Shown one piece after another: positions 5,212 to 55,735 of a stretch of 64,000 bases of DNA; the stretch's first letter is position 1; each line of letters opens with the position of its first letter. The position numbers and the translations under genes are program-made. Source of the DNA: Chiridota heheva (lineage: Eukaryota > Echinodermata > Holothuroidea > Apodida > Chiridotidae). A model generated the notes under the pieces. It was not told where the DNA came from. It was given only the letters and a program-made list of their open reading frames with translations, and searched no databases. The stretch spans positions 625,001 to 689,000 of the forward strand of contig JAIGNY010001834.1 of the NCBI GenBank assembly GCA_020152595.1, read 5' to 3'.

Positions 5212-5214
5212 AAG

Positions 5215-5335
5215 AGGAGCCTATACAGGTAGTGCCCAATCAGGAGCCAGTATTCCTAATTTCTCATGAATATTCACGGGGTGCAAATTAGGTGGAATAT
5301 TGGCTCCTGATTGGTCACTACCTATATAGGCTCCT
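5215..5335. promoter_or_regulatory. 121-bp palindrome with CCAAT and TATA motifs on both arms
   Basis: The left arm (5215-5256) and right arm (5294-5335) are inverted repeats with about 39 of 42 positions matching. Pairing extends inward through CCTAATTT/AAATTAGG. Each arm, read outward, has TGATTGG (inverted CCAAT) and then a TATA-like box (CCTATATAGG right, CCTGTATAGG left) ~15 bp further out. The central loop holds CATGAATATTCA and GTGCAAATTA, which resemble octamer-type elements. This arrangement is that of divergent H2A/H2B-type promoters (established for metazoan histone clusters); applying it here is inference. It could simply be a palindromic MITE. Confidence 0.5.
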
Positions 5336-5411
5336 CGTGATTTACCACACGACCGAAGGTCGTCAAATCTATTGAAGGAAAGGGAATAAACACAATGTCT
5401 TAACTCAATTT

Positions 5412-5449
5412 TGTTCTTTCTTATATTTGTGGTGGCTCTTTTAAGAGCC
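5412..5449 (-). terminator. Histone-type 3' end: stem-loop plus HDE (copy A)
   Basis: On the minus strand, CAAAGGCTCTTAAAAGAGCC forms a 6-bp stem with a 4-nt loop (5434-5449). It is followed by ACCACA and, about 12 nt further on, a purine-rich AAGAAAGAAC (5412-5421). This is the metazoan replication-dependent histone mRNA 3' processing signal (SLBP stem-loop and U7-pairing downstream element). It starts 25 nt after the stop codon of the ORF at 5475-5825, as in real histone genes. Confidence 0.85.
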
Positions 5450-5474
5450 TTTGGGTTCTTGATCAATCGATCTG

Positions 5475-5825
5475 CTACCGCCCTCCTCCTGTGGCTCTCT
5501 GCTGTCCTTCCCCGATGGCTCCCTGGTGTTCACCCTTGTCGGTAACTTTCTTTGATTCTGCAGGGGTCTCGTGTTCTTTTGCCATCTTGAAAGCAGCAAC
5601 GTAAAAGGCCCATATGCCGCCCCAGCAGTTTGACACGTCTTGGTAAGCATGGACAATGGCTGTCGTGATTACATTGCCTTCTGCAGGATGAAACTCGTCT
5701 TTGAATGGTGTTAAACAATTGCATCTGTTTTCGAGGTGTTCTGTAACTTTATCGTAGTCGATATGTCCAGAGCTCCATTTTCTCAAAAGTTCAAACATTA
5801 CTTTGGCTAAGACTTCCCACCCCAT
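5475..5825 (-). CDS. Bcl-2-family-like ORF ending in a histone-type 3' UTR
   Basis: A 116-residue ORF from ATG at 5825. In-frame codons continue upstream, but they lie in the shared leader and a GA microsatellite, so 5825 is the preferred start. The segment VSNCWGGIWAFYVAAFKMA resembles a Bcl-2 BH1 helix pair (family pattern NWGRIVAFF.F...), preceded by amphipathic helices and an F-containing helix at the right distance. It is shorter than cellular Bcl-2 proteins, has no C-terminal membrane anchor, and ends in a polar Gly/Arg tail. I see no convincing BH3. The 3' UTR is a bare histone stem-loop and the 5' leader is shared with the ORF at 7572-8032. Bcl-2-like proteins regulate apoptosis and occur in hosts and DNA viruses; the assignment is tentative. 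Confidence 0.45.
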   Translation of the reverse strand: MGWEVLAKVMFELLRKWSSGHIDYDKVTEHLENRCNCLTPFKDEFHPAEGNVITTAIVHAYQDVSNCWGGIWAFYVAAFKMAKEHETPAESKKVTDKGEHQGAIGEGQQRATGGGR

Positions 5826-5876
5826 GTTGAGGATGTGTTCGCTCTGAAACTCAAAATGAAAAGAACGAGAGAGAGA

Positions 5877-6130
5877 GAGAGAGTTGAACACACAATTACA
5901 ATGACGGGGTCGTCGCCTGCGTAACACGGTTATGATTGTACAAATGCTATCACGAAACGCTTAATACGACCCGGACGAGAACACAGGTACGACGTACGAA
6001 CAGACACAACATCGACAACCAAGTCAATGTCCATGGCCTTTGATAACCAGTTGTGGTGCACTGGCGTGTCCACCCACCCCAGGATTAAACCCGGGGCCTC
6101 GTGGTCTGTAGACAGGTATGATCACCGCTA
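5877..6130 (-). promoter_or_regulatory. Shared ~253-bp 5' leader, copy A, with tRNA-like 5' end
   Basis: Nearly identical to 8079-8331 (roughly 90% by eye). Read on the minus strand it starts TAGCGGTGATCATACC and has the B-box-like GGGTTTAATCC (GGTTCAATCC in copy B) inside a CCCCGG/TGGGG arm, so its 5' ~80 nt resemble a tRNA or tRNA-derived SINE head. It runs on through a well conserved CGTACGTCGTACCTGTG segment to about 50 nt before the ORF start at 5825. Either a common leader exon of a gene family or two insertions of one SINE. Confidence 0.6.
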
Positions 6131-6164
6131 CACCACAGTAGGTAGATAAAAAGTCAAGTATGCT

Positions 6165-6192
6165 CTATTTATGCTTGTTGGTTTGACTAATC
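6165..6192 (-). promoter_or_regulatory. Candidate core promoter of the Bcl-2-like ORF
   Basis: Minus strand ATAAATAG (6165-6172) is a good TATA box, 35 bp upstream of the point (6130) where homology between the two leader copies begins, the distance expected for a start site. A degenerate CCAAT-like CTAATCAG lies at 6185-6192. Placement rests on the leader comparison. Confidence 0.4.
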
Positions 6193-6279
6193 AGAAGCCA
6201 GAAAAGTATGATGCCATTTTATTTGGAAGCGCTCTTTTGTTTTGATAAAATAAAAAATAATTTAAAAATAATAGTAAAT

Positions 6280-7275
6280 AGAAATGACATGGAAAGGTTT
6301 AAGTGCACCAATGTTTAAGACACCAGTTGGAGTGCGGCAAGGATGTCCTCTCTCGCCAACTATTTTCAACCTTTACACAGAGGCAATGATGCGTGAATGG
6401 ACTCGGGCAACTGAACATCTTGTACCTCCAGATGTTGAAGGCTTCACTACCAATGAACTACGATATGCAGATGATATTGCACTCCTGGCACTAAGTGCTA
6501 ACGATGCAGAAATCCAGCTACAGTCGCTTGGTGTCATTGCTTCGCAATATGGTCTCCAACTACACCCTGATAAAACTGAGTACATGGTAATACAGCCCAC
6601 ACTGGATAACCTTTCAATTTCATACAATGGTACTGCTATCAAACGTGTCACTTCATTCCGCTACCTTGGCTAAGTCTTGTCCTACAACACTGATGATTCT
6701 GCAGAAATACGAAGCCGCATTGCAATGGCAAAGCAGAGCATTAACCAAAGTAGTTACATAAAATCCACTCACATTGACTTAGAGGTGAAGATGCTTCTCA
6801 TTAAGTCCCTTGTCATGGCCAGACTTACATATGGTGCATTAAGCTGGGCAATGAAGAAAAATGACCTGGCAGCTCTTGATGCATTTGGTAGAACTATCTG
6901 GCGGCGCCTGCTTGGACTTACATGGTCTGACAAAATTTCCAATGACCACCTACAACATCTGATTGGAAATAGATGGCTTTTTTCATCTGACATAATCCTG
7001 GAGCAACAAGCTAAGTGGCATGGACATTGTGTACCTAAAGGCCTTGCCCCCATGATGTCAGGCCTTCCCTCTGGTACCAAAAGATATGCTGGGCGCCCTT
7101 GTGTCAGGTGGATGGATGGCCTGAAAAGTTGGAGTGGATTGTCTGCATCTGATCTGGCTACTGCAGGGTGGTCCAGAATTCTACTTCAAAAACTTCAGCC
7201 AGACACATCCTATTCAATGACCATGAGGAGTGCGTCAACGAGCCGCTAGGCTTATGGCGATTGATTGATTGAAAT
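6280..7275 (+). mobile_element. 5'-truncated non-LTR retrotransposon (RTE/BovB-like)
   Basis: Contains the 3' half of a reverse transcriptase ORF and a short 3' tail with GATT repeats (GATTGATTGATT at 7260). It is inserted between the leader of the minus-strand Bcl-2-like ORF and the 3' end of the charged ORF, in the opposite orientation to both. The 5' junction lies in an AT-rich stretch near 6244-6280. Clade assignment is by motif style only. Confidence 0.8.
6284..7249 (+). pseudogene. Reverse transcriptase C-terminal part, one in-frame stop
   Basis: The first segment (to 6670) carries the RT motif VGVRQGCPLSPTIFNLY and the catalytic box LRYADDIALLA, followed by GLQLHPDKTEYMVI of the next RT motif and FRYLG. 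A TAA at 6671-6673 interrupts the frame, which then resumes directly (VLSYNTDD). The rest covers the thumb/connector, with LLIKSLVMARLTYGALSWAM and WRRLLG, and a C-terminal GRPCVRWMDGLKSW typical of RTE-like elements. An intact element would add an upstream endonuclease domain, which is missing here. A single stop suggests fairly recent insertion. Confidence 0.85.
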
Positions 7276-7503
7276 AGAAAAATAATATTAAACAAAATAA
7301 TAAATACTTTTTTAGAATAAATAAATCAATCAATCAAATAATATTATAAAAAAAAAATTGAAAAAAAAATGAACAAGCATAAACGATAAGAACAAACATA
7401 CAATAAAACGATAAGAAAATTGACACATCAAACGATAAAACATGGACGTTACAAACCATTACAAAATATTAAAAACGTTGCGAAGGATGTCTTGAATCAT
7501 TTT

Positions 7504-7539
7504 CTCTTTCTTATACCTGTGGTGGCTCTAAAAAGAGCC
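7504..7539 (-). terminator. Histone-type 3' end: stem-loop plus HDE (copy B)
   Basis: Minus strand CAAAGGCTCTTTTTAGAGCC forms a perfect 6-bp stem with a 4-nt loop (7524-7539), followed by ACCACA and a downstream purine element AAGAAAGAG (7504-7512). It starts ~32 nt after the stop of the ORF at 7572. It matches the canonical histone signal more closely than copy A. The flanks (TTTGGGTT before, TATAAGAAAGA after) are shared with copy A. Confidence 0.88.
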
Positions 7540-7571
7540 TTTGGGTTTCTTTTTTCTTCTGGTAAGTCACA

Positions 7572-8032
7572 TCAGTATGGGATAGAAGGGGCACTTGCAG
7601 TACTGGTGTTGCGTCTGTGTCCGTACCGAACGGCTTGCCTCTGATTTTTTGGTCTTTGCTTGTTCTTTGGTCTTTGCATGTTCTTTGCTTCTTCTTTGGT
7701 CTTTTCTTGTTCTTCGTCCTCCTCCTCTAGTGCTGGCGGCCAGTCGTCAGCCACGATGAAGTCTTTGTCCGCTGCAGCTAGCACACGGACCCACTCGCCG
7801 TTAGACGAGCTCCTCGTCCTCCTCTATCTCTCTCTCTCTCTCTGTACCGTAGTCACTTTAAAGGACGGCTCGTCATCCTCGTTCCAATCGCTTGCAGAGT
7901 CTGTTGCTGAGCTCGGTGAGCTGGCTGTGTAACGTGCGATCATAGCGTCGAAGTCGAACTCTTCGCTTCTAGCCAGCCCTCTCTTTCCTCCATGTACACC
8001 TCTACCGTAACGTATTCGTATAGAGTAGCCAT
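7572..8032 (-). pseudogene. Charged ORF with shared leader and histone-type 3' end, frameshifted
   Basis: ATG at 8032 opens a 30-codon frame (MATLYEYVTVEVYMEE...) closed by TGA at 7940-7942. An overlapping frame carries an acidic Ser-rich stretch (YTASSPSSATDSASDWNEDD), and after a GA microsatellite (~7832-7846) a third frame carries a Glu/Lys/Arg-rich C-terminus (EEEDEEQEKTKEEAKN, then basic QRPKN repeats) to a stop at 7572. The product therefore appears broken by one small indel and by GA-repeat slippage, though splicing or programmed shifts are not excluded. No family recognised. Leader length (~300 nt) and stop-to-stem-loop distance match the Bcl-2-like unit, so the two genes look like modules of one kind with unrelated coding sequences. 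Confidence 0.5.
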
Positions 8033-8078
8033 GTTGTTTAGTTGTATGTAGATCTGAATGATCAAATGATTGAAAATT

Positions 8079-8331
8079 GAGAGAGTTGAACACACATTTA
8101 CAATGACGGGATCGTCGCCTGCGTATTCGGTTATGATAGTACAAATGCTATCACGATACGCTTAATACGACCCGGACGAGAACACAGGTACGACGTACGG
8201 ACAGACATAACATCGACAACCAAGTTAATGTCCACGGCCTTTGATAACCAGTTGTGGTGCACTGGCGTGTCTACCCACCCCAGGATTGAACCCGGGGCCT
8301 CGCGGTCTGTAGACAGGTATGATAACCGCTA
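8079..8331 (-). promoter_or_regulatory. Shared ~253-bp 5' leader, copy B
   Basis: Second copy of the module at 5877-6130, same strand and same position relative to the following ORF. Copy B keeps a better B-box (GGTTCAATCC). Homology stops abruptly at 8331 (CGCTA), as it does at 6130 in copy A, which fits a transcription start or an insertion boundary. Confidence 0.6.
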
Positions 8332-8355
8332 GATTGAAAATTATCAAAGTTAGTA

Positions 8356-8436
8356 CTTTTATTCTGTCTGCAAATAATACTCACCCTGCTATGATTGGTT
8401 AGACAGACACGTGGCTGTATACTTACCCCCAATTGG
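8356..8436 (-). promoter_or_regulatory. Candidate promoter of the charged ORF: TATA-like box, E-box, two CCAAT boxes
   Basis: On the minus strand, upstream of the leader: AATAAAAG (8356-8363), 25-32 bp from the leader start; AACCAAT at 8394-8400; CACGTG at 8408-8413; and AACCAAT at 8432-8438. Paired CCAAT boxes with a TATA-like element ~35 bp downstream are typical of histone-type cell-cycle promoters. Functional status is inferred. Confidence 0.4.
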
Positions 8437-8747: not shown

Positions 8748-9282
8748 TTATGCAGAGGGTTCTTCTTTTTTGGGGGGTTTCTTGATGATGATGGGTGGTA
8801 TGTCCAGTTTTAAATTAACCTTGCCTCTTTTTGACAAGGTAGGAGGTGGCGACGACGACGGTGAACGGGGTCTTTTCTTTGCTTTTGAATGTTCTGCTTC
8901 CATCTGTTTGCACAATTCGTCCATGTTACTGGGATTTTTTTCCAAGATGGGTACTTTGACCAGCGCTTTCAAATGTTATATTGCAAATAGCCCTTCCACG
9001 CTCGCCAGTTTACACCATTGCTCCAGGTTAAGAAAAATCCCTTTTTCTCCGGGTATGACGGTTCATCGACGGGTGGTGTGTCCGTTCGGGTCGCTGATCG
9101 TTTGCATTGCGTAGTCGTAATGGCGTAAGTCCACGAGAATGTTTTCACCTTCTGCGGTAAAACTGATGTAAATTTGTTTTCCCAGAAGCAAACGTAACCT
9201 TTTTTGGGGGTGACAGACCGCTCATGTGACGGGCTCCGTTGACGTTAGACGTATGGTAAGGCAAGGCCCTTTCGGATACCAT
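8748..9282 (-). pseudogene. Decayed PC4/p15-like transcription coactivator domain ORF
   Basis: From ATG at 9282 the frame is lost at an A6 run near 9200. The next frame carries KQIYISFTAEGENILVDLR and, beyond an in-frame TGA, PGEKGIFLNLEQWCKL. Together these are the signature of the PC4 C-terminal ssDNA-binding domain (family pattern: ...VLIDIREY... PGKKGISL..EQW). A TAA follows, then the frame continues as a Lys/Pro/Ser-rich tail (KKRPRSPSSSPPP) to 8750. Three lesions indicate a pseudogene. Cellular PC4 has its basic/Ser region N-terminal; here it is C-terminal. PC4-like ORFs are also seen in DNA viruses and large transposons, which fits the compact array but is not proof. Confidence 0.6.
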
Positions 9283-10071
9283 GTTTTGATCTTGCAGAGA
9301 AGTGCAAGGGCGAGGCATAACAAGGTTGCAACACTAAACTTTCATCTTCACAAAAGAGGTTGGTAAGTCAAAAATATAATTTGACTGAACGAACTAGGCC
9401 TCCACTGCGTGCAAATAAAAGTATTCAACTCAGTTTCTACGACTTCGTTCTTAAGGCTAACCCGCAAATATTGCTACAATTGTACAATCCTAGTATATTA
9501 TGAGTTTATTTATAGCTTTCCGTAACTCACCACAGGTAGTTCCACAGCTATGCCCCCCCCCCCCCTCCCTCCTTCCCCATGCGAAAAGACCTGGCTACGG
9601 GCCTGAATTGAATCAAAAGAAAGTCAATTACTATTATAAATTTATTGGTGGGCATGGGATAGATTTAAACAATTTTGCTCATATCTTGCTTAAAAGAATC
9701 ACTTTAAAGAATCGTCGCCTTTTATTTCATCACAAAATCTGCATGAAATATAAAAATTGGTGCCGAATATTTAGAGATGCTTTAAAATAGTCAATTTTTT
9801 TGCCGATTTTATTAAAACCTTTGCTACTATGATAGTTAATGTATTTTTCACAGTTTAAATAGATTTTAAAGCAATTTAGCAATAATCTGATAATGTTGCC
9901 GCTCATGATGCGTTCATACCTTTAGGGTATATAGACACGTAAAACATTTTTCCTCTTATGATGGAGCATGACATTCTGAGCAGAAAAGTTTTCAAATGGC
10001 TCAAATAGAAATTATAGCTTTTGAATTATGCCAAATTAAATTTTGAAGATTTTCTTCAGCATGTGCAAAAG
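9283..10071. other. Non-coding, dispersed-repeat-like
   Basis: Contains a C10 tract (9552) and a segment at 9820-9930 (TTGCTACTATGATAG, AATAATCTGATAATGTTGCC) related to sequence near 4130-4220 and 50620-50700. The open frame at 9500-9790 has no recognisable domain. Confidence 0.35.
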
Positions 10072-13699: not shown

Positions 13700-15420
13700 C
13701 CGTTCAAAAGCTAGGTGGGTAAAGTATGGTGAAAAACGTTCGAAGTACATTTTGGATCTTGAAAGGCGCAATAAGAGTATGAATTGTATAAATAGCTTAT
13801 TAGATGAGTCTGGGAACATTATTACCGATAAGGATAAAATCCGGCTGCATATTCGCTCTTTTTATCAATCTCTTTACGCCTGCTCAAACGGTTGTAATCC
13901 GGATCCTTTCTTTGTAAATCTAGGTGATGAGTCTCGCCTTAGTGACGAGCAGATGCTCTGCTGTGAGGGCAAGCTCACCTTAGCTGAATGCATTAACTGT
14001 TTAAAGTCTTTTCATAGAAATAAGTCGCCTGGTTCGAATGGCTTTCTCTCATAATTTTATACGTTTTTATGGTTTGAGATAGGTAATCTAGTGTTGAATT
14101 CTCTTGATTATGCTTTCTCTCAGGGCCATCTTTCTCATGAGCAGAGTTGTGGTACTATTTCTCTTATACCCAAGGATGGCAAGGATACTTGTTTTCTTGG
14201 TAACTGGAGACCATTCTTCTTGCTCAATGTAGATTATGAAATAGGTGCGAAGTGTATCGCGTCCCGAATTAAACAATTTCGTAAGTATATAATAAACACT
14301 GATCAAACCGGTTTTTATAAAAGACCGTATATCGGTGAGAATATTCGCACGGTTTTCGACACAATTTCTTACTGTAATGAAAAATAGTTGGAGGGTTTTC
14401 TTTTATTCATTAATTTTGAAAAGGTGATCGACCGTCTTGACTGGTCTTTCCTTTCAAAAGCTCTTGCATAGTACTTCAACTTTGGGTTCAAATTTGCTAT
14501 GTTAACGCTTCTGCTTGAGTGATGAATAACGGTTACTCTACTGGTTTTTTAAAGTTCGCAAAGGTGTGCGTCAAGTTGCCAATTAAGTTCTTACCTTTTT
14601 GTTTTATGTGCGGAATTTGTTGCTATTGAGATAAGGGCGGAGAGTGCTATTTGGGGAATCAGCATCGGCAATAAGGAAATACAAACTGTGCAGTACGCTT
14701 ACGACACTTCTCTTTTTGTTGATGGTAGTGAAGAGACCTTGGTCACCGTTTTACGTGTATCAACGATTTTTATGAGTCATCTGGTTTAGAGTTAATCTAA
14801 ATAAATCTTACCATTTCCCACCAGGAACATCTTGTCATTCACTTCCAGACTATATTGACAATTTTGATTTCCCAATTAATACTGGCCCGATCAAATTGCT
14901 TGGTATTTTTTTTCACGCAGAGAGATGTGGACTTTTTTAGTCTTAAGTACCTGCCGAAATTCTCTAGACTTAAAGATAAGTTGAGGATGTGGTCCCAGCG
15001 GAATCTTTCTCCTCTTGGACAAATTACTATCATAAACGCTTTAGCTCTGTCCCAATTAATTAATGTTTAGTCGGTCTTGCCAAACTCACCGCGCGGGTCT
15101 TGCCAAATTGACCTCGTGGGTCTTGCCAAATCCACCTCGTGGGTCTTGCCAAATCCACCGCGTGGGTCTTGCCAAATCCACCTCGTGGGCCTTGCCAAAT
15201 CCACCGCGTGGATTTTGCCAAATCTACCTCGTGGGCCTTGCCAAATCCACCGCGTGGGTCTTGCCAAATCTACCTCGTGGGTCTTTCCAAATCCACCGCG
15301 TGGGTTTTATAAGGGGCTTGATGGTGTTTTGTATAAGTTTATCTGGAATGGAAGCCCGACAAAATAAAACGTCGTGTTTTTATTTAATTCAATTGAGTTT
15401 GGAGGTCTTAACATGGTAAA
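13700..15420 (+). pseudogene. LINE ORF2 reverse transcriptase, broken
   Basis: Blocks in order: LDLERRNKSMNCINSLLDE (pre-RT), LKSFHRNKSPGSNGF (RT motif 1), TISLIPKDGKD and LGNWRPFFLLNVDYEI (motif 2, LIPK...WRP.SLL), NTDQTGFYKRPYIGENIR (motif 3), LLFINFEKVIDRLDWSFL (motif 4, catalytic D), AEFVAIEIR..., VQYAYDTSLFVDG (YADD equivalent mutated to YAYD), RLKDKLRMWSQRNLSPLGQ, and after the minisatellite LYKFIWNGSP. This order and the SLLNVDYKI-type motif place it with L1/Tx1. At least ten disabling lesions. Confidence 0.85.
15074..15305 (+). repeat. 23-bp minisatellite grown inside the LINE RT coding sequence
   Basis: About ten copies of a 23-bp unit (TTGCCAAATCCACCKCGTGG plus GTC), alternating CCTCG and CCGCG variants. 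In related LINEs this site encodes VLPNPP.GFYK between LSQLINV and FIWNG. One unit encodes exactly LPNPPRG in frame with the following GFYKGLDGVLYKF, so the array is an expansion of the element's own codons. Because 23 is not a multiple of three, it also destroys the frame. Confidence 0.92.
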
Positions 15421-19521: not shown

Positions 19522-20520
19522 GAAGAGCGCCACGCTGCTCAAGCCACATATTCTTCCCATTGCCGTAATTAGAGCGCCACACTGTACATAATAGTTGCTG
19601 CGCGTCGTAGTGTATTATTTGATATCAGTTTCGTTTCAAATAAAATGGTTTTGTCGGCTGAAAGTGAATGAAAAAGCTAATCCTCCGTCTTTCTTTTTAT
19701 GTGATATATTCTTCTTTATTTCATCCCCTCTTTGCCCCGATCCAGCAATATCATTACATTATCATTATTTTGATGATTGGTTTGCTTATATGGTTCAAAG
19801 CATATCTTTAAGTTGTTGCTACATTTTCATAGATCTTTAAAATAAAATATTTCTCACACAGAAAACACAAATGTAGTAGTTTTTGTATGCAATGTATTTC
19901 AAACAAGTACAATGTTTATTCGACATGAACTTAAAAACACATATGGGACCACATCAATCAAAATACAATACAATAATTTTCCACTGTTCGATCTTCTAGT
20001 TTACTTGATAAGCGGATGAACAAGCGAAACAATGAAACAATAGAGAATGAAAACATATGTTTTCTTTGTTTTCTTCCAATTGCTTCTTCACTGCGTTTTT
20101 ATCCTTTATTCTGAGGAATAAAAAATATTTTTCGTTAAAATAAAGGGCAAGGATATCAAAGGTGGAATGTAATTAAGACATTTCATACATATACTTCTGA
20201 ACCAATTTGTGAAGCTGGCTGCTTGAGATGCTGGGATGCATAATACATCATACAGTAATACCTCACTTAAATACATTTTATTTGACGAGTTGACAGTGAT
20301 GCCGTGACCTCATGCATTATATATCATGATTTTATTGGAATTTTTCGAATATATTGGTACTTCTAAGAAGTACTGAGAGGTGCTAAATCTGGTGAAAACA
20401 TCAGTATCATATATTTCTCGTCAAAACCTTACTTACTTTGTTCGATTGATCAGTTCTGTTGCACACTAGACTGCTAGAATCCAATGCTAATACTGTTAAA
20501 TTACTACAATCCTACAATTA

Positions 20521-20815
20521 GGGGAGGTGTGTAGCTCAGTTGGTTGAGCTTACGGCTGATACGGTCCCAGGTTCGAGTCCAACGGTGACTTAAACAGCGA
20601 TTGTGTACAGATATGCAGGACGATATACGCTGACATGGGGCGCAGAGGTTTGTCTTCCGCATCACACATTCTACCCACATTTCTTTGGGAAAAGTGGCCA
20701 ATGGTTAGGCGACCCTTTGGAGGGGACGTTAACGCACCTTTGAGAAAAATGGACAAGGGTTGGGTAACCCTCAGAGGGGACATTAAGCCGTCTGTCCCGG
20801 CGAAACTAACAACTC
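20521..20815 (+). mobile_element. tRNA-derived SINE, copy 1
   Basis: The head is tRNA-like: TAGCTCAGTTGGTTGAGC (A box) and GGTTCGAGTCC (B box) ~33 bp later. The body contains a 54-bp repeat starting GTGGCCAATGGTTGGG / CCTTTGAGAAAA, about two copies here. Same position in each 3-kb unit, so it was amplified with them. Not a functional tRNA: the anticodon arm is not foldable and there is no 3' acceptor half. Confidence 0.85.
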
Positions 20816-21367
20816 AGTGATAAACATTCATTGCTTTCATTGCTCAATATTATTTATTCCCTTTTATATTTTTACCTCGCCGTTTTTGAAATATAAGGGA
20901 AAATCAGAAAAAAAGCTCTTTTTTTTGGCGCGAAACAGTCATTAAAAAAAATCAAATATTTGTAACAGTATAATTTTGTCGTTGATACTGCAGATTATAA
21001 GGAATAAAATTACAAATCACAATATCTTACAATGATGGGCGTAGGAGGAGGGGGAGTCATTAGACTATTTTCGGGCAAAGGTGTTAAAGAAATTTGGGCA
21101 AAATACCAAACGACACTTTTGTAATGCAAAGGCTGAAAGGGGTATTTTATCGGTGCTTCCTTTTGTCACTTTTGCGCCTAGAAATTCAAGACTTTTGGGC
21201 AATTTCCCTTTGCCCCCTAAATAAATTTGAGCTCCTACGCCCATGCTTACAATAAATATAACAAACTATTCTCTCTCTCTCTCTCTCTCTTTCTAATAGT
21301 TTAACTATAAATTTAAACTCTTACGGTCACTTGCGCGATGGTTATGCAATGGCTTTTTAGAATTTAA

Positions 21368-21892
21368 AGAGGGAGGCTCGTCTCAGTAAAATACGGTAAA
21401 AATAGGGTATACTATATTTTGACGTCACTTCCGGTTGTGGAGGCAATATCCGATCCTCTGTCTGTTTGTACCACACAGTACAGCCCAGACACTAGCATGT
21501 ACGTTGTGAGTGCAGAATTACATACACAGCGCATTACGTTAGTGACGAGAAACTTATTTGTTTTTTTCAGAAAGCGAGAGTGAATTTTTGGTTTTATAAT
21601 ACTACAATGATAGTCACCAAATGAAAACTACTGAGAAAAAAGAAGAAGAAGATGAAAGCAAAAGTCAAAATAAACGATTCTACCGGGGCTCGAACTCACG
21701 ACATGATTTAAAAGAAAACGTTACTTGCGATCGCTACAACAGTCTGGGCCATCTCGTATGATAATTTTCAAGGCGTTTTAAATTACTATATACCTTGCAA
21801 TACAAGACAACGAATCGCGCAGCAAAATTTCAACCAATCAACAAATTTGAAAGGAATTCTAAATATTGAGCACATATGACGATATCGCCTCT
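21368..21892. mobile_element. 525-bp MITE with TTAA target duplication
   Basis: Flanked by TTAA at 21364-21367 and 21893-21896. The ends are AGAGGGAGGC and ATCGCCTCT (short inverted termini). The homologous site in unit 2 (25386-25400, GAATTTAAGGAAATATTTCG) is uninterrupted, so the boundaries are exact. TTAA duplication is typical of piggyBac-type elements. Inside on the minus strand is a tRNA-like segment (GTTGTAGCGATCGCAAGT with GAGTTCGAGCCCC). The right end recurs at ~56893-56990. Confidence 0.88.
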
Positions 21893-23526
21893 TTAAGCAA
21901 ATATTTTGATGAGTAGAAATTGTTCAATTGTGTTGCATATTTCTGTCAGACCAGCTGCAAACTAGAATGCTAATTAAAGTGTGGTTTGCGAATTGCTCTT
22001 AAATTGAATTTTAATATAAGATAGGTGTTACAGTTAAGTGATCAACTCACTCCAGGTAGAGCCTGACGCAGATCATCTATGGGAAAAGAGAATAATTTTC
22101 ATTATTGACAAACGACGACAATTCTTTCTCTATTTATTTCGAAGAAGGAAAGACGGCGCCAATTGATTGATGGCCCTTTATTTAGATTTAAATGTTACCT
22201 TACGGTCGCCTCCAAAATGGTTATGAAATGGTTTGTTAGAATCTTAGCAAATAATTCGATCAGTCAAAATCGTTCAATTGCATTGTATAACTCTGTGAGA
22301 CCTATTGCAAACTAGAATGCTAATTAGAGTGTGGTTTGTGAATTACTCTTAAAATGAATTTCTATGCAAGATATTTGTTATAGTTTGAAGTAATTAACTC
22401 ACCCCAAGGCCCAGGTAGGGCCTGGCGCGGATGAGGAAGCTATGAGGAGAGAGGGGAAAATACAATATTGACAAACGACGACAATTCTTTATCTATTCAT
22501 TTCGAAGAAGGAAAGACACAAAACACAAATGTAGTAGTTTTTGTGTGCAATGTATTTCAATTAAGTACAATGTATATTCGACATGATCTTAGAAACATAT
22601 ATGGGATCACATCATTAAAATTACAATACAACAATTTTTCACTGTCCGATCTTCTAGTTTACTTAATAAGCGGATGAACAATGGTGTCACAATATTATAA
22701 CAATCAACATTGCATAACTTAATATGATAAGGCTCAAAAATTCAAACTACAGGAAAATGGTCAATTTGAACCAATGTTGATGATCGGTTTGCTTAATTAT
22801 GGTTCAAAGCATATTTTCAAGTCGTTACTACATTTTCAAAGATCTTTAAAATAAAATATTTCTCACACAGAAAACACAAATGTGGTAGTTTTTGTATGCA
22901 ATGTATTTCAAACAAGTGCAGTGTATATTCAACATGAACTTAGAAACATGTATGGGACCACATCAATCAAAATACAACACAATAATTTTCCACTGTTCGA
23001 TCTTCTAGTTTACTTGATAAGCGGATGAACAAGCGAAACAATGAAACAATAGAGAATGAAAACATATGTTTTCTTTGTTTTCTTCCAATTGCTTCTTCAT
23101 AACGTTTTTATCCTTTATTCTGAGGAATAAAAAATATTTTTCGTTAAAATAAAGGGCAAGGATATCAAAGGTGGAATGTAATTAAGACATTTCATACATA
23201 TACTTCTGAACCAATTTGTGAAGCTGGCTGCTTGAGATGCTGGGATGCATAATACATCATACAGTAATACCTCACTTAAATACATTTTATTTGACGAGTT
23301 GACAGTGATGCCGTGACCTCATGCATTATATATCATGATTTTATTGGAATTTTTCGAATATATTGGTACTTCTAAGAAGTACTGAGAGGTGCTAAATCTG
23401 GTGAAAACATCAGTATCATATATTTCTCGTCAAAACCTTACTTACTTTGTTCGATTGATCAGTTCTGTTGCACACTAGACTGCTAGAATCCAATGCTAAT
23501 ACTGTTAAATTACTACAATCCTACAA

Positions 23527-24832
23527 TTAGGGGAGGTGTGTAGCTCAGTTGGTTGAGCTTACGGCTGATACGGTCCCAGGTTCGAGTCCAACGGTGACTT
23601 AAACAGCGATTTTTCACAGATATGCAGAACGATATACGCTGACATGAGGCGCAGAGGTTTGTCTTCCGCATCACACATTCTCCGACATTTCTTTGGAAAA
23701 AGTGGCCAATGGTTGAGCGACCCTCGGAGGGGACGGTAAGCCACCTTTGAGAAAAGTGGCCAATGGTTGGGTGTAGAGCTGTGACCGTTTAGCGTGTACA
23801 CGCTACACGCTTGCAAATCCTGTAAACGTTTACTAAATACTTCATTGCGAGTAATCGTTTTTCATAGTCAGTCGTTGAAAATCAATGTGTCATTCATGAT
23901 TCAAATCACACACACATTCGGCTGACAAAATTCCAATCAATGACTTTTTACAAACTGTAAACCCGATTAGCATAATCATTTTTAAATGTGCGAATCACAA
24001 ATGCGCAGTAATAATCACCAATGAATGGGGATATTATGCACTTTGATTTCGCCAAAATCTGAGTAGGCCTCATCTAATTTGTAAAATGCACCGCGAATGT
24101 GCAGCAGTACATAGTGAAACTAAAAAAAGAAAAAAACACTTGAAAAATACTTGAATCGTGACAATCAGTACATTTAAATGTAAATATTACCTGATGAGTC
24201 AAACAAATGTTGCAAGAAAGAAAAAATATTGAAAAATAAACAAACAGAAAAAGGTTTTAACAGAGCTGAAATTCTGCATGCGTCGCAAAGATGGCGGCCA
24301 CTTTTTTGAGAGGACTGATATTCTAGAACTTCCTGGTTTTGGTGGCGTAGTTTTGAAATGTTTTACGGCGCGGTATATCATAGGCTTAGTATGCAAGATT
24401 TTCATAGAAATTTTTTGAAAGCCGTAGCGAATAGATCAAAAAAGTTACGCGATGTTGAGTTTAAATGACATTGAAAGGAAGTTATCTGTTCTTTCTAAAC
24501 TGAATTTTCATGCATATTTACCATAAAAATGATGATTTATACAGTAGAAGTAAACTTTTGACGATTTGGAAAACAAAACTCAGCGTCTATTTGGGCAATG
24601 GAGTCAGCACTTTTGCTATACTGGTTGCGCGTTTTTTTTTTACTTTGCCTTGCAGTTTTGGAGCAATTTTGGTGTATTTCCGAAAATTACAGTATTAAAC
24701 GTGTGTACACGACACACGCTCGTTTTTTTTTTGCGTGTACACGTTTACTAAAATCCCTAAACTCAACTAGAGCTCTAGTTGGGTGACCCTCGGAGGGGAC
24801 GTAAAGCCGTCTGTTCCGGCGAAACTAACAAC
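23527..24832 (+). mobile_element. tRNA-derived SINE, copy 2, split by a hAT element
   Basis: Same head as copy 1 (TAGCTCAGTTGGTTGAGC, GGTTCGAGTCC). The body is interrupted at 23773 inside a 54-bp VNTR unit and resumes at 24778 (GTTGGGTGACCCTCGG). Confidence 0.85.
23774..24777. mobile_element. Non-autonomous hAT-type DNA transposon, 1,004 bp
   Basis: Exact 8-bp target-site duplication GTTGGGTG at 23766-23773 and 24778-24785. Termini TAGAGCTGTG and (reverse complement) TAGAGCTCTA fit the hAT TAGNG-type TIR. Subterminal motifs GCGTGTACACG and AACGTTTACTAAA occur in inverted orientation at both ends, as for hAT transposase binding sites. No transposase ORF. Units 1 and 3 have the empty site (GGTTGGGTAACCC and GGTTGGGTGACCC). 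Confidence 0.95.
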
Positions 24833-26670
24833 TCAGTGATACACATTCATTGCTTTCATTGCTCAATATTATCTATTCCCTTTTATATTTTCACCTCGCC
24901 CTTTTTGATATATGAGGGAAAATCAGAAAAAAGCTCGTTTTTTGGCGCGAAACAGTCATTTAAAAAAATCAAATATTTGTAAGAGTATAATTTTGTCGTT
25001 GTTACTGCAGATTATAAGGAATAAAATTACAAATCACAATATCTTACAATGATGGGCGTAGGAGGAGGGGGAGTCATTAGACTATTTTCGGGCAAAGGTG
25101 TTAAAGAAATTTGGGCAAAATACCAAACGACACTTTTGTAATGCAAAGGGGTATTGTATCGGTGCTTCCTTTTGTCAATTTTGCGCCTAGAAATTCAAGA
25201 CTTTTGGGCAATTTCCCTTTGCCCTTTAAATAAATTTAAGCTCCACGCGCATGCTTACAATAAATATAACAAACTTTTCTCTCTCTCTCTTTTTCTCCAT
25301 GGCTCTCTCTCTCTCTTTCTAATAGTTTTAAGTATAGATTTAAAGTTTACGGTCACTTGCGCAATGGTTATGCAATGGCTTGTTAGAATTTAAGGAAATA
25401 TTTCGATGAGTAAAAATTGTTCAATTGTATTGCATATTTCTGTCAGACCAGCTGCAAACTAGAATGCTAATTAAAGTGTGGTTTGTGAATTGCTCCTAAA
25501 CTGAATTTCAATACAAATTAGGCAGATAGGTGTTACAGTTAAGTGATCAACTTACCCCAGGTAGATCCTGGCGCATTTCATCTATGGGAAAAGAGAATAA
25601 TTTTCATTATTGACAAATGACGACAATTCTTTCTCTATTCATTTCGAAGAAGGAAAGGCGGCGCCAATTGATTGATGGCCCTTTATTTAGATTTAAATGT
25701 TATCTTACGGTCGCCTCCAAAATGGGTATGAAATGGTTCGTTAGAATCTTAGCAAATAATTCGATCCGTCAAAATCGTTCAATTGTATTGCATAATTATG
25801 TGAGACCTATTGCAGTATTGCAAACTAGAATGCGAGTGTGGTTTGTGATTACTCTTTAAATAAATTTCTATGCAAGATATTTGTTATAGTTTTAAGTGAT
25901 TAACTCACCCCATGGCCCAGCTAGGGCCTGGCGCGGATGAGGAATCTATGAGGAAAGAGGGGGAAATACATTATTGACAAACGACGACAATTCTTTCTCT
26001 ATTCATTTCGAAGAAAGAAAGACAAAAAACACAAATGTAGTGGTTTTTGTATGCAATGTATTTCAAACAAGTACAATGTTTATTCGACATGAACTTAGAA
26101 ACATACATGGGACCACATCTATCAAAATACAATACAATAATTTTCCACTGTTCGATCTTCTAGTTTACTTGATGAGCGGATGAACAAGCGAAACAATAGA
26201 GAATGAAAATATATGTTTTCTTTGTTTTCTTCCATCGCTTCTTCATAACGTTTTTATCCTTTATTCTGAGAAATAAAACATATTTTTTGTTAAAATAAAG
26301 GGCAAGGATATCAAAGGTGGAATGTAATTAAGACATTTCATACATATATTTCTAAACCAATTTGTGAAGCTGGCTGCTTTAGATGCTGGGATGCATAATA
26401 CATAATACCTCACTGCATACATTTTACTTGACCAGTTGACAGTTATTCCGTGACCCCGTGCATTATACATATCATGATTTTATTGGGATATTTCAAATAT
26501 ATTGGTACTTCTAAGAAGTACTGAGAGGTGCTAAATCTGGTGAAAACATCAGTATCATATATTTCTCGTCACAACCTTAGTTTCTTTGTTCAATTGATCA
26601 GTTCTGTTGCACACTAGACTGCTAGAATCCAATGCTAATACTGTTAAATTACTACAATCCTACAATTAGG

Positions 26671-27076
26671 GGAGGTGTGTAGCTCAGTTGGTTGAGCTTA
26701 CGGCTGAGATGCAGAAGGTCCCAAGTTCGAGTCCAACGGTGACTAAAACAGCGATTTTCCACAGATATGCAGAACGATATACGCTGACATGAGGCGCAGA
26801 GGTTTGCCTTCCGCATCACACATTCTCCCCACATTTCTTTGGGTAAAGTGGCCAATGGGTGGGTGACCCTCAAAGGGGATGTTAAGCCACCTTTGAAAAA
26901 AGTGGCCAATGGTTGGGTGACCCTCGGAGGGCACGTTAAGCCACCTTTGAGAAAAGTAGCCAATGGTTGGGCGACCCTCGGAGGGGATATTAAGCCACCT
27001 TTGAGGAAAGTGGACAATGGTTGGGTGACCCTCAAAGGGGACGTAAAGCCGTCTGTTCCGGCAAAACTAACAACTC
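26671..27076 (+). mobile_element. tRNA-derived SINE, copy 3, with ~5 VNTR units
   Basis: Head as in copies 1-2, with a small difference between A and B boxes (GAGATGCAGAAGGTCCCAAG). The 54-bp unit (18 codons) stays open, giving a repetitive PRVTQPLATFLKGGLT-like minus-strand frame that is an artefact. Confidence 0.85.
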
Positions 27077-52459: not shown

Positions 52460-53065
52460 TGCCATTAAGCATCTGTAAAGCATCAGGTAATGAAGGCATT
52501 CCCAATGAGTTTCTTAAACATATATCAATTTATTTGGCTGATTACCTTATCAATTTTTTTATTCTTATATTTCCCCATTGAAATATCCTAAGGAATTGAA
52601 CACAGGTTGATTTGTCCCAATTACAAAAGGGAGATGTAAATTAGCCAGAAATTTTTAGGCCAATAAGTCTTCTTTCTTCAGTGAGCAACAATACTTTCTG
52701 CAAGGTTTTGAGAAATAGACTAAAACAATAGTCACTTGATGTTTTAAATCCTACACAGGAGGGCTTCTGAGAGGAATATTTAACCGTTGATAGTATTTTT
52801 GTTTTGAATTGTATTAGTTCGAGTACTTTAACAAGAAACGTTCTAAACAGTACACCACCTTCATTGATTCTTGTGTGGCATTTGAATCTATCAATAGAAG
52901 TGTCATGGTATTGGTGGTAAATATCTTAATATGATTGAAGCAATGTATGAGGACATTAATTGTAGAGTGCAATTAATTACTGGCTTGTTAGGGGAGTTTA
53001 AATGCATGAAAGGGTTGATACAAGGTAGTGTGATGTCGCCACTGTTATTTGAAAGGGTTGATACA
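52460..53065 (+). pseudogene. LINE reverse transcriptase fragment, broken
   Basis: Blocks in order: KASGNEGIPNEFLKHIS (RT motif KASG.DGI..E.LK), NWPE-like then RPISLLSSVS (RPISLL), KVLRNRLK, LNPTQEGF (QAGF), DINCRVQLITG-like, and GLIQGSVMSPLLF (motif Q-G-x-x-x-S-P-x-L-F). Several stops and frameshifts. The last motif is where the minisatellite begins. Confidence 0.85.
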
Positions 53066-55735
53066 AGGTAGTGTGATATTGCCACTGTTATTTGAAAGTT
53101 TGATACAAGGCAGTGTCATGTCACCACTGTTATTTGAAAGGTTGATACAAGGTAGTGTGATGTCGCCACTGTTATTTAAAAGGTTAAGATACAAGGTAGT
53201 GTGATGTTGCCACTGTTATTTGAAAGGTTGATACAAGGTAGTGTGATGTCACCACTGTTATTTTAAAGGTTGAGATACATGGTAGTGTGATGTTGCCACT
53301 GTTATTTGAAAGGTTGATACAAGGCAGTGTCATGTCACCACTGTTATTTGAAAGGTTGATACAAGGTAGTGTGGTGTCGCCACTGTTATTTGAAAGGTTG
53401 AGATACAAAGTAGTGTGATGTCGCCACTGTTATTTGAAAGGTTGATACAAGGTAGTGTGATGTCGCCACTGTTATTTGAAAGGTTGATATACAAAGTAGT
53501 GTAATGTCACCACTGTTTTTTTAAAGGTTGATACAAGGTAGTGTGATGTCGCCACTGTTATTTGAAAGGTTAAGATACAAGGCAGTGTGATGTTGCCACT
53601 GATATTTGAAAGGGTTGATACAAGGTAGTGTGATGTCGCCACTGTTATTTAAAAGGTTGATACAAGGTAGTGTGATGTCGCCACTGTTATTTGAAAGGTT
53701 GATATACAAAGTAGTGTGATATCGCCACTGTTATTTGAAAGGTTGATACAAGGTAGTGTGATGTTGCCACTATTATTTGAAAGGTTGATACAAGGTAGTG
53801 TGATGTCGCCACTGTTATTTGAAAGGTTGATATACAAAGTAGTGTGATGTCGCCACTGTTATTTGAAAGGTTGATACAAGGTAGTGTGATGTTGCCACTA
53901 TTATTTGAAAGGTTGATACAAGGTAGTGTGATGTCGCCACTGTTATTTGAAAGGTTGATATACAAAGTAGTGTGATGTCGCCACTGTCATTTGAAAGGTT
54001 GATACAAGGTAGTGTGATGTTGCCACTGATATTTGAAAGGTTGATACAAGGTAGTGTGGTGTCGCCACTGTTATTTGAAAGGTTGATATACAAAGTAGTG
54101 TGATGTCGCCACTGTCATTTGAAAGGTTGATACAAGGTAGCGTGATGTCGCCAATGTTATTTGAAAGGTTGATACAAGGTAGCGTGATGTCGCCACTGTT
54201 ATTTGAAAGGTTGATATACAAAGTAGTGTGATGTCGCCACTGTTATTTGAAAGGTTGATACAAGGTAGTGTGATGTTGCCACTGTTATTTGAAAGGTTGA
54301 TACAAGGTAGTGTGATGTTGCCACTGTCATTTAAAAGGTTGATACAAGGTAGTGTGGTGTCGCCACTATTATTTGAAAGGTTGATATACAAAGTAGTGTG
54401 ATGTCGCCACTGTCATTTGAAAGGTTGATACAAGGTAGCGTGATGTCGCCACTGTTATTTGAAAGGTTGATATACAAAGTAGTGTGATGTCGCCACTGTT
54501 ATTTGAAAGGTTGATACAAGGTAGTGTGATGTTGCCACTGTTATTTGAAAGGTTGGTACAAGGTAGTGTGATGTCACCACTGTTATTTGAAAGGTTGATA
54601 TACAAAGTAGTGTAATGTCACCACTGTTATTTGAAAGGTTGATACAAGGTAGTGTGATGTTGCCACTATTATTTGAAAGGTTGATACAAGGTAGTGTGAT
54701 GTTGCCACTGTTATTTGAAAGGTTGATATACAAAGTAGTGTGATGTCGCCACTGTCATTTGAAAGGTTGATACAAGGTAGTGTGATGTTGCCACTGATAT
54801 TTGAAAGGTTGATACAAGGTAGTGTGGTGTCGCCACTATTATTTGAAAGGTTGATATACAAAGTAGTGTGATGTCGCCACTGTCATTTGAAAGGTTGATA
54901 CAAGGTAGCGTGATGTCGCCACTGTTATTTGAAAGGTTGATATACAAAGTAGTGTGATGTCGCCACTGTTATTTGAAAGGTTGATACAAGGTAGTGTGAT
55001 GTTGCCACTGTTATTTGAAAGGTTGATACAAGGTAGTGTGATGTTGCCACTGTCATTTGAAAGGTTGATACAAGGTAGTGTGGTGTCGCCACTATTATTT
55101 GAAAGGTTGATATACAAAGTAGTGTGATGTCGCCACTGTCATTTGAAAGGTTGATACAAGGTAGCGTGATGTCGCCACTGTTATTTGAAAGGTTGATATA
55201 CAAAGTAGTGTGATGTCGCCACTGTTATTTGAAAGGTTGATACAAGGTAGTGTGATGTTGCCACTGTTATTTGAAAGGTTGATACAAGGTAGTGTGATGT
55301 CACCACTGTTATTTGAAAGGTTGATATACAAAGTAGTGTAATGTCACCACTGTTATTTGAAAGGTTGATACAAGGTAGTGTGATGTCGCCACTCTTATTT
55401 AAAAGGTTAAGATACAAGGCAGTGTGATGTTGCCACTGTTATTTGAAAGGATTGATACAAGGTAGTGTGATGTCGCCACTGTTATTTAAAAGGTTGATAC
55501 AAGGTAGTGTGATGTCACCACTCTTATTTGAAAGGTTGATATACAAAGTAGCGTAATGTCGCCACTGTTATTTGAAAGGTTGAGATACAAAGTAGTGTAA
55601 TGTCGCCACTGTTATTTGAAAGGTTGATATACAAAGTAGTGTAATGTCGCCACTGTTATTTGAAAGGTTGATATACAAAGTAGTGTAATGTCGCCACTGT
55701 TATTTGAAAGGTTAAGATACAAGGCAGTGTTTTTT
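52990..55735 (+). repeat. 42/44-bp minisatellite (~64 units) derived from an RT motif, with 128-bp higher-order repeat
   Basis: The first unit (GGGTTGATACAAGGTAGTGT, then GATGTCGCCACTGTTATTT) encodes the LINE motif GLIQGSVMSPLLF in frame with upstream RT codons. Monomers are 42 bp, or 44 bp where ACAAGG becomes ATACAAAG. From ~53690 they are ordered 44-42-42, giving a 128-bp period, with 86- and 170-bp variants. About 64 units. It lies in the last intron of the coiled-coil gene. The many ~92-codon minus-strand frames are artefacts of the period. Confidence 0.96.

Follow-up and report, generated by a model that had tools for sequence, protein, structure and literature searches.

Genes and Features of the Locus

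The window (the whole 64-kb stretch of the Chiridota heheva genome, contig JAIGNY010001834.1, positions 625,001 to 689,000) contains two short genes on its minus strand, gene 1 and gene 2. Each gene follows a TATA-like box and a near-identical leader, and each ends in a histone-type stem-loop and purine element. Judged by sequence, the arrangement very probably combines the decayed end of a Polinton/Maverick, whose accessory genes have histone-type 3' ends, with a separate short interspersed element (SINE) that is spaced from TATA-like boxes. Locus numbers (L054, L086, and so on) refer to loci read from the C. heheva genome (1.10 Gb, 3744 contigs). The two genes and their promoter motifs are as follows.

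5475 to 5825, minus strand: gene 1, open, 116 amino acids; probably the last accessory gene of the Polinton/Maverick.
6165 to 6173, minus strand: TATA box of gene 1, CATAAATAG; the same box is present in L054, L072, L096, L097, L099, L100, and L101.
7572 to 8032, minus strand: gene 2 remnant, frameshifted and interrupted by a stop within a CT microsatellite.
8356 to 8363, minus strand: TATA box of gene 2, AATAAAAG, which begins 21 nucleotides before the target site duplication (TSD) of SINE copy 2.
8394 to 8398, minus strand: CCAAT box upstream of gene 2 (sequence motif).

The original prediction described two unrelated open reading frames (ORFs), each with a TATA-like box before its leader. 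The boxes are in place, and gene 1 is open. Gene 2 is not: the remnant is 461 nucleotides in length, its frame from the ATG (8032) ends after 30 residues, and the rest lies in another frame with a stop. An open relative of gene 2, 158 amino acids in length, is present in L086. The two coding sequences are unrelated as described, with only chance matches of 9–12 nucleotides in blastn and no match between the gene 1 protein and the protein encoded by the open gene 2 in L086. Both genes are small units in which no intron was seen. With the SINE present, the stretch from TATA box to main ATG contains two upstream ATGs in gene 1 and three in gene 2, each closed by a stop.

A search of the genome with the gene 1 region and its stem-loop gave 642 first-look candidates, 40 of which were scored and show 85–100% identity. 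Searches with gene 1 found nothing in Pfam or the protein database, and its best PDB match (E 1.1) is no better than chance. A piece of gene 3, the next gene upstream, has no match in the protein database, and gene 1 and a gene 2 piece found nothing in viral_contigs. A likeness of gene 1 to Bcl-2 (a BH1-like region) was rejected as not significant; the best of three comparisons was equaled by 32 of 2000 shuffles, and the Bcl-2 profile placed gene 1 at rank 25 of 2001. A single-sequence fold of gene 1, with a predicted local distance difference test (pLDDT) score of 49, was too poor for use.

The Leader as a SINE

The leaders at 5877–6130 and 8079–8331 (minus strand) share 94% identity over 254 nucleotides, which bears out their predicted near-identity. 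Their role as a 253-bp regulatory module of a gene family does not stand. They form part of two SINE copies, with the following boundaries.

5867 to 6146, minus strand: SINE copy 1, with 5' end TCTACCTACTGTGGTG and a CT tail, inserted near the gene 1 start site.
8079 to 8331, minus strand: SINE copy 2, a repeat copy with a shortened 5' end.
8068 to 8078, minus strand: TSD of SINE copy 2, downstream in gene orientation, identical to 8332–8342.
8332 to 8342, minus strand: TSD of SINE copy 2, upstream in gene orientation, identical to 8068–8078.

The perfect TSD of copy 2 is 11 nucleotides in length (GATTGAAAATT, plus strand). No exact TSD of at least 6 nucleotides flanks copy 1. Sequences resembling the A and B boxes of a tRNA promoter, TGGTGTAGCGG and GGTTCAATCCTGG, can be recognized by visual inspection of the SINE. 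An Rfam tRNA match at a SINE in L054 scores 28.4 bits, just under the cut-off of 29, and a scan of the window with ARAGORN returned no tRNA. Searches of the genome gave 1501 first-look candidates for copy 1 and 1017 for copy 2; the 40 scored per query are 95–100% and 97–100% identical, respectively. The SINE core found nothing in viral_contigs. The leader is an abundant, probably tRNA-derived SINE that was secondarily inserted.

An alternative is that a domesticated or viral gene family is expressed from a single designed cassette made up of leader, ORF, and stem-loop. All three parts are present at both window genes, and a SINE also lies just before a stem-loop gene in L054, L086, L095, L099, L101, and L102. 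Against this, gene 1 is leader-free in L096, L097, and L100 (3 of 10 gene 1 copies), and the cassette is refuted as regards the leader. The SINE copies also have TSDs and differing 5' ends, and the other copies read are mostly at unrelated sites. The single cassette is thus barely credible, and what looks like one in the window is two unrelated systems, a SINE and Polinton genes. The proposed exchange of coding sequence between constant modules survives in part: unrelated ORFs do precede the same stem-loop module, but the leader is an inserted SINE. The alternative foreseen in the original prediction, an ordinary SINE whose other copies lack ORFs and stem-loops, is half borne out. The stem-loop pattern occurs at 0 of 68 other SINE loci, in a scan that covered 1–1.5 kb downstream (L086, read later, has one), but the stem-loop genes are independent of the SINE.

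TATA Spacing of SINE Insertions

The 78 SINE loci that were read can be sorted into three sets (41 + 29 + 8). Set 1 comprises the 40 scored matches to copy 1, including window copy 1, together with window copy 2. Sets 2 and 3 are matches to copy 2, two further matches having duplicated earlier loci, and set 3 was used only in the pool. An exact TSD was counted from a length of 8 nucleotides upward, and a TATA box was called at a TATA-matrix score of at least 5 starting at −23 to −16 before the TSD.

An exact TSD is present at 29 of the 41 loci of set 1, and 17 of these 29 have a TATA box in the −23 to −16 interval, which was picked after looking at the data; the background is 1.6 per 8-nucleotide bin, with a maximum of 4 in 32 bins. 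For set 2, threshold and interval were fixed beforehand. An exact TSD is present at 16 of its 29 loci, and 6 of the 16 have a TATA box (0.47 expected, maximum of 2 in 32 bins). Pooled, 52 of the 78 loci have an exact TSD, 11–13 nucleotides in length in 37 of the 52. Three loci with another SINE as upstream flank were dropped and two pairs were merged by flank similarity, leaving 47 independent loci. A TATA box starts at −23 to −16 in 25 of the 47, against a background mean of 1.87 (maximum of 4 in 45 bins), and random placement in 2000 trials gave at most 7 loci with a TATA box. The commonest start is exactly −21 (17 loci). A looser threshold raises the count to 33 of 47, with 4.6 expected. 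The base composition over 45 TSD loci is TATA(A/T)AA(G/A).

The spacing can also be measured from the SINE 5' end, for which no TSD is needed. Among full-length copies, 14 of 33 and 6 of 22 have a TATA box at −36 to −29; on the antisense strand, the figures are 2 of 33 and 1 of 22. At about half of the independent loci, the TSD begins about 21 bp past the TATA start and the SINE lies in sense, so that it ends about where transcription would start. The SINE therefore tends, on these sequence measures, to insert in sense approximately where a TATA promoter would begin its transcript.

A TATAAA-like sequence 21 bp away could also be recognized directly by the endonuclease or ribonucleoprotein of a partner long interspersed element (LINE), with no role for a promoter or for TBP. 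The TATA box is the single strong signal, the initiator not being enriched and CCAAT only weakly so, and an ORF lies directly downstream of the SINE at few loci. Some targets, however, do directly precede ORFs (Polinton genes 1 and 2, and a 278-amino-acid ORF in L055), and the constant spacing of the motif from the nick, outside which it lies, would fit a bound factor. Recognition of the motif alone is therefore unlikely, though it carries real weight.

The box may instead be a feature of RNA polymerase III (Pol III) transcription, which SINE copies keep or are selected for, located at −31/−24 and boosting their expression. Measured from the SINE 5' end, its position in full-length copies (about −36 to −29) is in keeping with this, and such boxes influence the transcription of mouse SINEs (PMC7279448). 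Yet retroposition does not bring the flanks with it, and these vary from copy to copy; loci also entered the sample by SINE identity and not by activity. We regard this origin of the spacing as improbable. Since Pol III transcription of SINEs responds to a TATA-like box at −31/−24 (PMC7279448), the placement of the SINE may nevertheless aid its own transcription.

Repeated Insertion at One Site

In the gene 1 copies with a SINE, the tail of the SINE is followed by the same gene base (cgttctttt, or aattctttt in L054). The 5' SINE junctions differ among L099, L101, L054, L102, and the window. In L054, two nested SINEs are separated by the same TSD, and L102 carries a SINE of an older subfamily, with 92% identity to the L049 reference. 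L095 has a gene 1-type 3' SINE junction with foreign DNA upstream, and L072, known from its promoter alone, has a gene 1-type promoter with two SINEs. Because the first junction is shared and the second junctions differ, the sequences argue for several independent SINE insertions at one nick site of the gene 1 promoter. Some gene 1 copies may share an insertion by descent.

In L098, inspection by eye shows an older-subfamily SINE whose TSD begins 21 nucleotides past a further TATA-like box. A single target is present in two copies, L029 and L036 (flanks 93% identical), with SINE insertions approximately 12–15 nucleotides apart; L036 has a 6-nucleotide duplication only and does not keep the 21-nucleotide TATA spacing. 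L051 and L077 are paralogous targets that may stem from a single insertion later duplicated, and they were left out of the evidence. At L092 1–5374 lies an array of over 20 SINE units, some full-length and others truncated at the 5' end, with nearly the same short spacer between them. It could also have formed by tandem duplication.

Histone-Type 3' Ends

The predicted histone stem-loop and purine element were located 3' of both genes as matches to Rfam family RF00032, with stems that start 25 and 32 nucleotides past the stop.

5408 to 5454, minus strand: histone-type 3' end of gene 1; RF00032, 29.1 bits, E 3.3e-4.
7499 to 7544, minus strand: histone-type 3' end of gene 2; RF00032, 37.5 bits, E 2.3e-7.

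The gathering score of RF00032 is 34, so that the gene 2 end lies above it and the gene 1 end below. RF00032 is the sole Rfam family above its gathering score in the window (gene 2 end), and the gene 1 end is next best by E-value. The gene 1 end is composed of the stem GGCUCU/AGAGCC, a UAAA loop, an 11-nucleotide spacer, and the purine element AAGAAAGA. The gene 2 end has a UUUU loop, an 11-nucleotide spacer, and the purine element AAGAAAGAG. Loops of histone stem-loops follow the rule UNUN. Nine other gene 1 copies were read; their loops are UAUA (seven), UAUG (one), and UAAA (one, L094). Gene 2 and eight of these nine fit the rule; window gene 1 and L094 deviate.

RF00032 is present 3' of gene 1 in all nine other copies (E up to 1.4e-3, four above the gathering score), which were retrieved with a query that included the stem-loop end. 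It is also present 3' of gene 2 in L097, L100, L101, and L086. A genome-wide search for the stem-loop gave 217,804 first-look candidates; 71 of the 75 scored are over the cut-off. The same search in 14 control genomes gave matches in nine, none over the cut-off. The stem-loop pattern has 13 matches in viral_contigs, by estimate about the number expected by chance for 16 fixed bases.

Six of the 75 scored loci were read. Two are histone H4 genes (L109 and L111, 99% identical to typed H4) and one is a linker histone H1 gene (L112, Pfam 1.2e-6). L107 is a diverged gene 1, with 56% amino acid identity over 77 residues. L110 and L108 belong to a third ORF family, which takes the gene 1 position in L054. 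L110 and L054 are 60% identical over 35 residues, and L108 and L110 share 77% DNA identity over 243 nucleotides, 3' end included. The stem, the 11-nucleotide spacer, and AAGAAAGA are common to host H4, host H1, and the Polinton ends, the spacing of 11 nucleotides between stem and AAGAAAGA holding in both window genes, L107, L110, L109, L111, and L112. The host genes, like the Polinton ends, combine this stem and spacer with the element AAGAAAGAG, and the bases flanking the stem are alike as well.

The histone-type module thus follows unrelated ORFs: gene 1, gene 2, and the L054/L110/L108 family each precede it and have no blastp match among them. A virus-like gene family with histone-type 3' ends is supported by these sequences, and the prediction of multi-copy, non-histone genes of this kind in a virus-like element appears sound.

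The stem-loops could be non-working relics, left where a Polinton captured histone 3' ends or where the element sits in an old histone locus. The window copies are partly decayed, as relics would be. A tblastn search of the window with core histones (H1 was not tried) found no coding remnant, with a best E of 1.3, and the old histone locus was set aside. The stem-loop and purine element are, moreover, kept in the diverged L107 and after unrelated ORFs. Relics are accordingly quite improbable.

Series of stem-loops approximately 1.43 kb or multiples apart occur at C1229 1424–25390 and C3175 462157–489080. These are probably tandem linker-histone genes; one that was read, L112, is H1 by Pfam. 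Contig C781 contains three stem-loops approximately 6 kb apart, one of which was read and is H4.

Probable Polinton/Maverick Identity

Gene 1 and gene 2 belong to a recurring order: gene 3, promoter 2, gene 2, stem-loop, promoter 1, gene 1, stem-loop, and an inverted promoter. This order is complete or largely so in L096, L097, L100, L101, and L102. Two further features of the window belong to it.

8748 to 9333, minus strand: gene 3 remnant, in three frames, decayed; an open relative (309 amino acids, PC4, weak WW) is in L103.
5214 to 5336, no strand assigned: inverted CCAAT/TATA promoter-like arms, 82% alike, present 3' of gene 1 in 9 of 10 copies, the window among them.

The inverted arms vary in number among copies. 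They may be part of the end of the element or a divergent promoter.

Genes upstream of this order were read in two element copies, L103 and L106, which with the downstream L104 and L105 make up 25 kb in four pieces read apart. An ORF in L106, from the element copy whose gene 1 is L100, encodes an rve integrase (PF00665, E 2.3e-12). A 445-amino-acid ORF in L103 encodes a capsid protein. It has no Pfam match but has 2755 homologues at E 1e-3, and some of the 120 listed are named capsid protein or major capsid protein. Its relatives include proteins of sea cucumber, starfish, and coral. A 151-amino-acid ORF in L103 has a weak adenain-like protease match (PF00770, E 0.0048), below the cut-off. L103 also contains two PC4-domain genes, E 8.7e-25 and, for gene 3 (309 amino acids, weak WW match), E 3.8e-9. 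These PC4 (p15) genes, at L103 4017–4505 and 4724–5653, lie just upstream of the stem-loop genes. DNA_pol_B_2 (E 1.1e-9) was found at L055, a separate Polinton-like locus of the same genome, where the SINE precedes the 278-amino-acid ORF. The capsid protein and a capsid alignment gave nothing confirmed in viral_contigs.

Because L103 and L106 carry integrase, PC4, and capsid genes upstream, genes 3, 2, and 1 of the window are taken as the end of a Polinton/Maverick. No Polinton genes were seen in the window beyond these three, and no rve ORF was seen in its truncated copy. A nimavirus origin was set aside: the accessible part of PMC10871703 gave no link, no search for nimavirus genes was made, and the Polinton genes settled the origin.

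Proposed Mechanism and Relation to Known Systems

The window would then hold the decayed end of an endogenous Polinton/Maverick, with its last accessory genes under TATA/CCAAT promoters and with histone-like 3' ends. Genes 1 and 2 would be transcribed in S phase, and cleavage by the SLBP/U7 machinery would leave their mRNAs without a poly(A) tail. Such expression of accessory genes would coincide with host DNA replication, which would suit a DNA element. The endonuclease of a partner LINE may be guided by TATA-bound TBP (the pre-initiation complex) or by a melted start site. The SINE target is regenerated, since the TATA box and start region are kept, and SINEs can therefore stack in tandem. 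The full model, to which we give an even chance, is that the SINE and its partner LINE integrate with near base-pair accuracy at RNA polymerase II (Pol II) starts via TBP, regenerate the target, and stack, and that a Polinton lineage took over histone mRNA 3'-end processing, tying its accessory genes to S phase.

A number of observations weigh against the reading of a decayed Polinton end with histone-type accessory genes and a separate TATA-spaced SINE. In the window, the gene 1 loop is non-canonical and gene 2 is broken. RF00032 was reported 3' of gene 2 in neither L096 nor L102, and a search of the L103–L106 pieces, which carry structural genes, gave no stem-loop. Among recent copies, the stem-loop is 92% identical, the coding sequence 90%, and the surrounding non-coding DNA 78–87%; the stem-loop is barely better conserved than the coding sequence, too little a difference for proof. 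The ratio of nonsynonymous to synonymous substitution (dN/dS) of gene 1 is a mild 0.44–0.57, from four open copies alone, one of which lacks an ATG.

Other such points concern the spacing. Of the 47 independent loci, 22 are under the set TATA threshold and 14 under the loose one, and the initiator motif is not enriched at their TSDs. CCAAT is present at −80 to −40 in 10 of the 47, against 1–5 in other upstream bins, an excess that is suggestive at most since one downstream bin has 9. The SINEs read are the best matches to two queries, a non-random draw; the CT tail leaves TSD starts uncertain by 1–2 bases; and the spacing was measured for a single retroposon family, this SINE. Most SINE targets are putative promoters, recognized by a TATA-like sequence, and the target in L069 may lie within what we take to be an actin-like gene.

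The element resembles animal adintovirus-like Polintons/Mavericks in its rve integrase, its capsid of the F54H12.2-like family, its weak adenain-like protease match, its many copies per genome, and its small variable genes beside the core. It differs in the host-histone-like 3' ends of its accessory genes. Replication-dependent histone genes have TATA/CCAAT promoters and short untranslated regions, as do these accessory genes. Unlike histone genes, the accessory genes encode non-histone proteins, have UAUA, UAAA, UUUU, or UUUA loops in place of the histone UUUC, and are dispersed in a transposon outside the histone repeats.

Tf1 of fission yeast, a long terminal repeat (LTR) retrotransposon with an integrase, prefers Pol II promoter regions and is not known to insert at a fixed distance from the TATA box. 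The start-site-targeting retrotransposons in the accessible part of PMC5911963 use Pol III genes. There, the non-LTR element TRE5-A of Dictyostelium and the LTR element Ty3 of yeast integrate near such genes at a set distance. TFIIIB is involved in both cases, being contacted (TBP included) by the ORF1 protein of TRE5-A and used by Ty3 for insertion at Pol III start sites. These contacts make guidance of the SINE by TBP plausible. Unlike TRE5-A and Ty3, the SINE is non-autonomous and lies behind Pol II-type TATA boxes. The literature searched, in which little subscription content was covered, contained no SINE or LINE that targets TATA boxes at Pol II starts and no report of a histone stem-loop in Polintons.

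If the full model is true, a retroposon that reads Pol II TATA boxes would allow promoter choice, TBP tethering, and start-site melting to be studied through integration, and SINE targeting would be a natural route to the same 5' untranslated region on many genes. Histone-type ends on Polinton genes would link an animal DNA transposon or virus directly and testably to host DNA replication, and the small set of non-histone SLBP/U7 users would be widened.

Other Features of the Window

An unrelated LINE fragment lies between genes 1 and 2.

6278 to 7249, plus strand: LINE fragment (reverse transcriptase); RVT_1, E 4e-17 for 6284–6673.

Weak RVT_1 matches (E 2.7e-4 and 0.057) in neighboring ORFs at 14055–14789 mark a decayed LINE. 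Segments of approximately 0.6–1 kb are repeated within 7 kb at 19767–26942, with 90–96% identity. A satellite array at 53007–55730 has a period of approximately 43 bp, as judged from the spacing of its self-matches.

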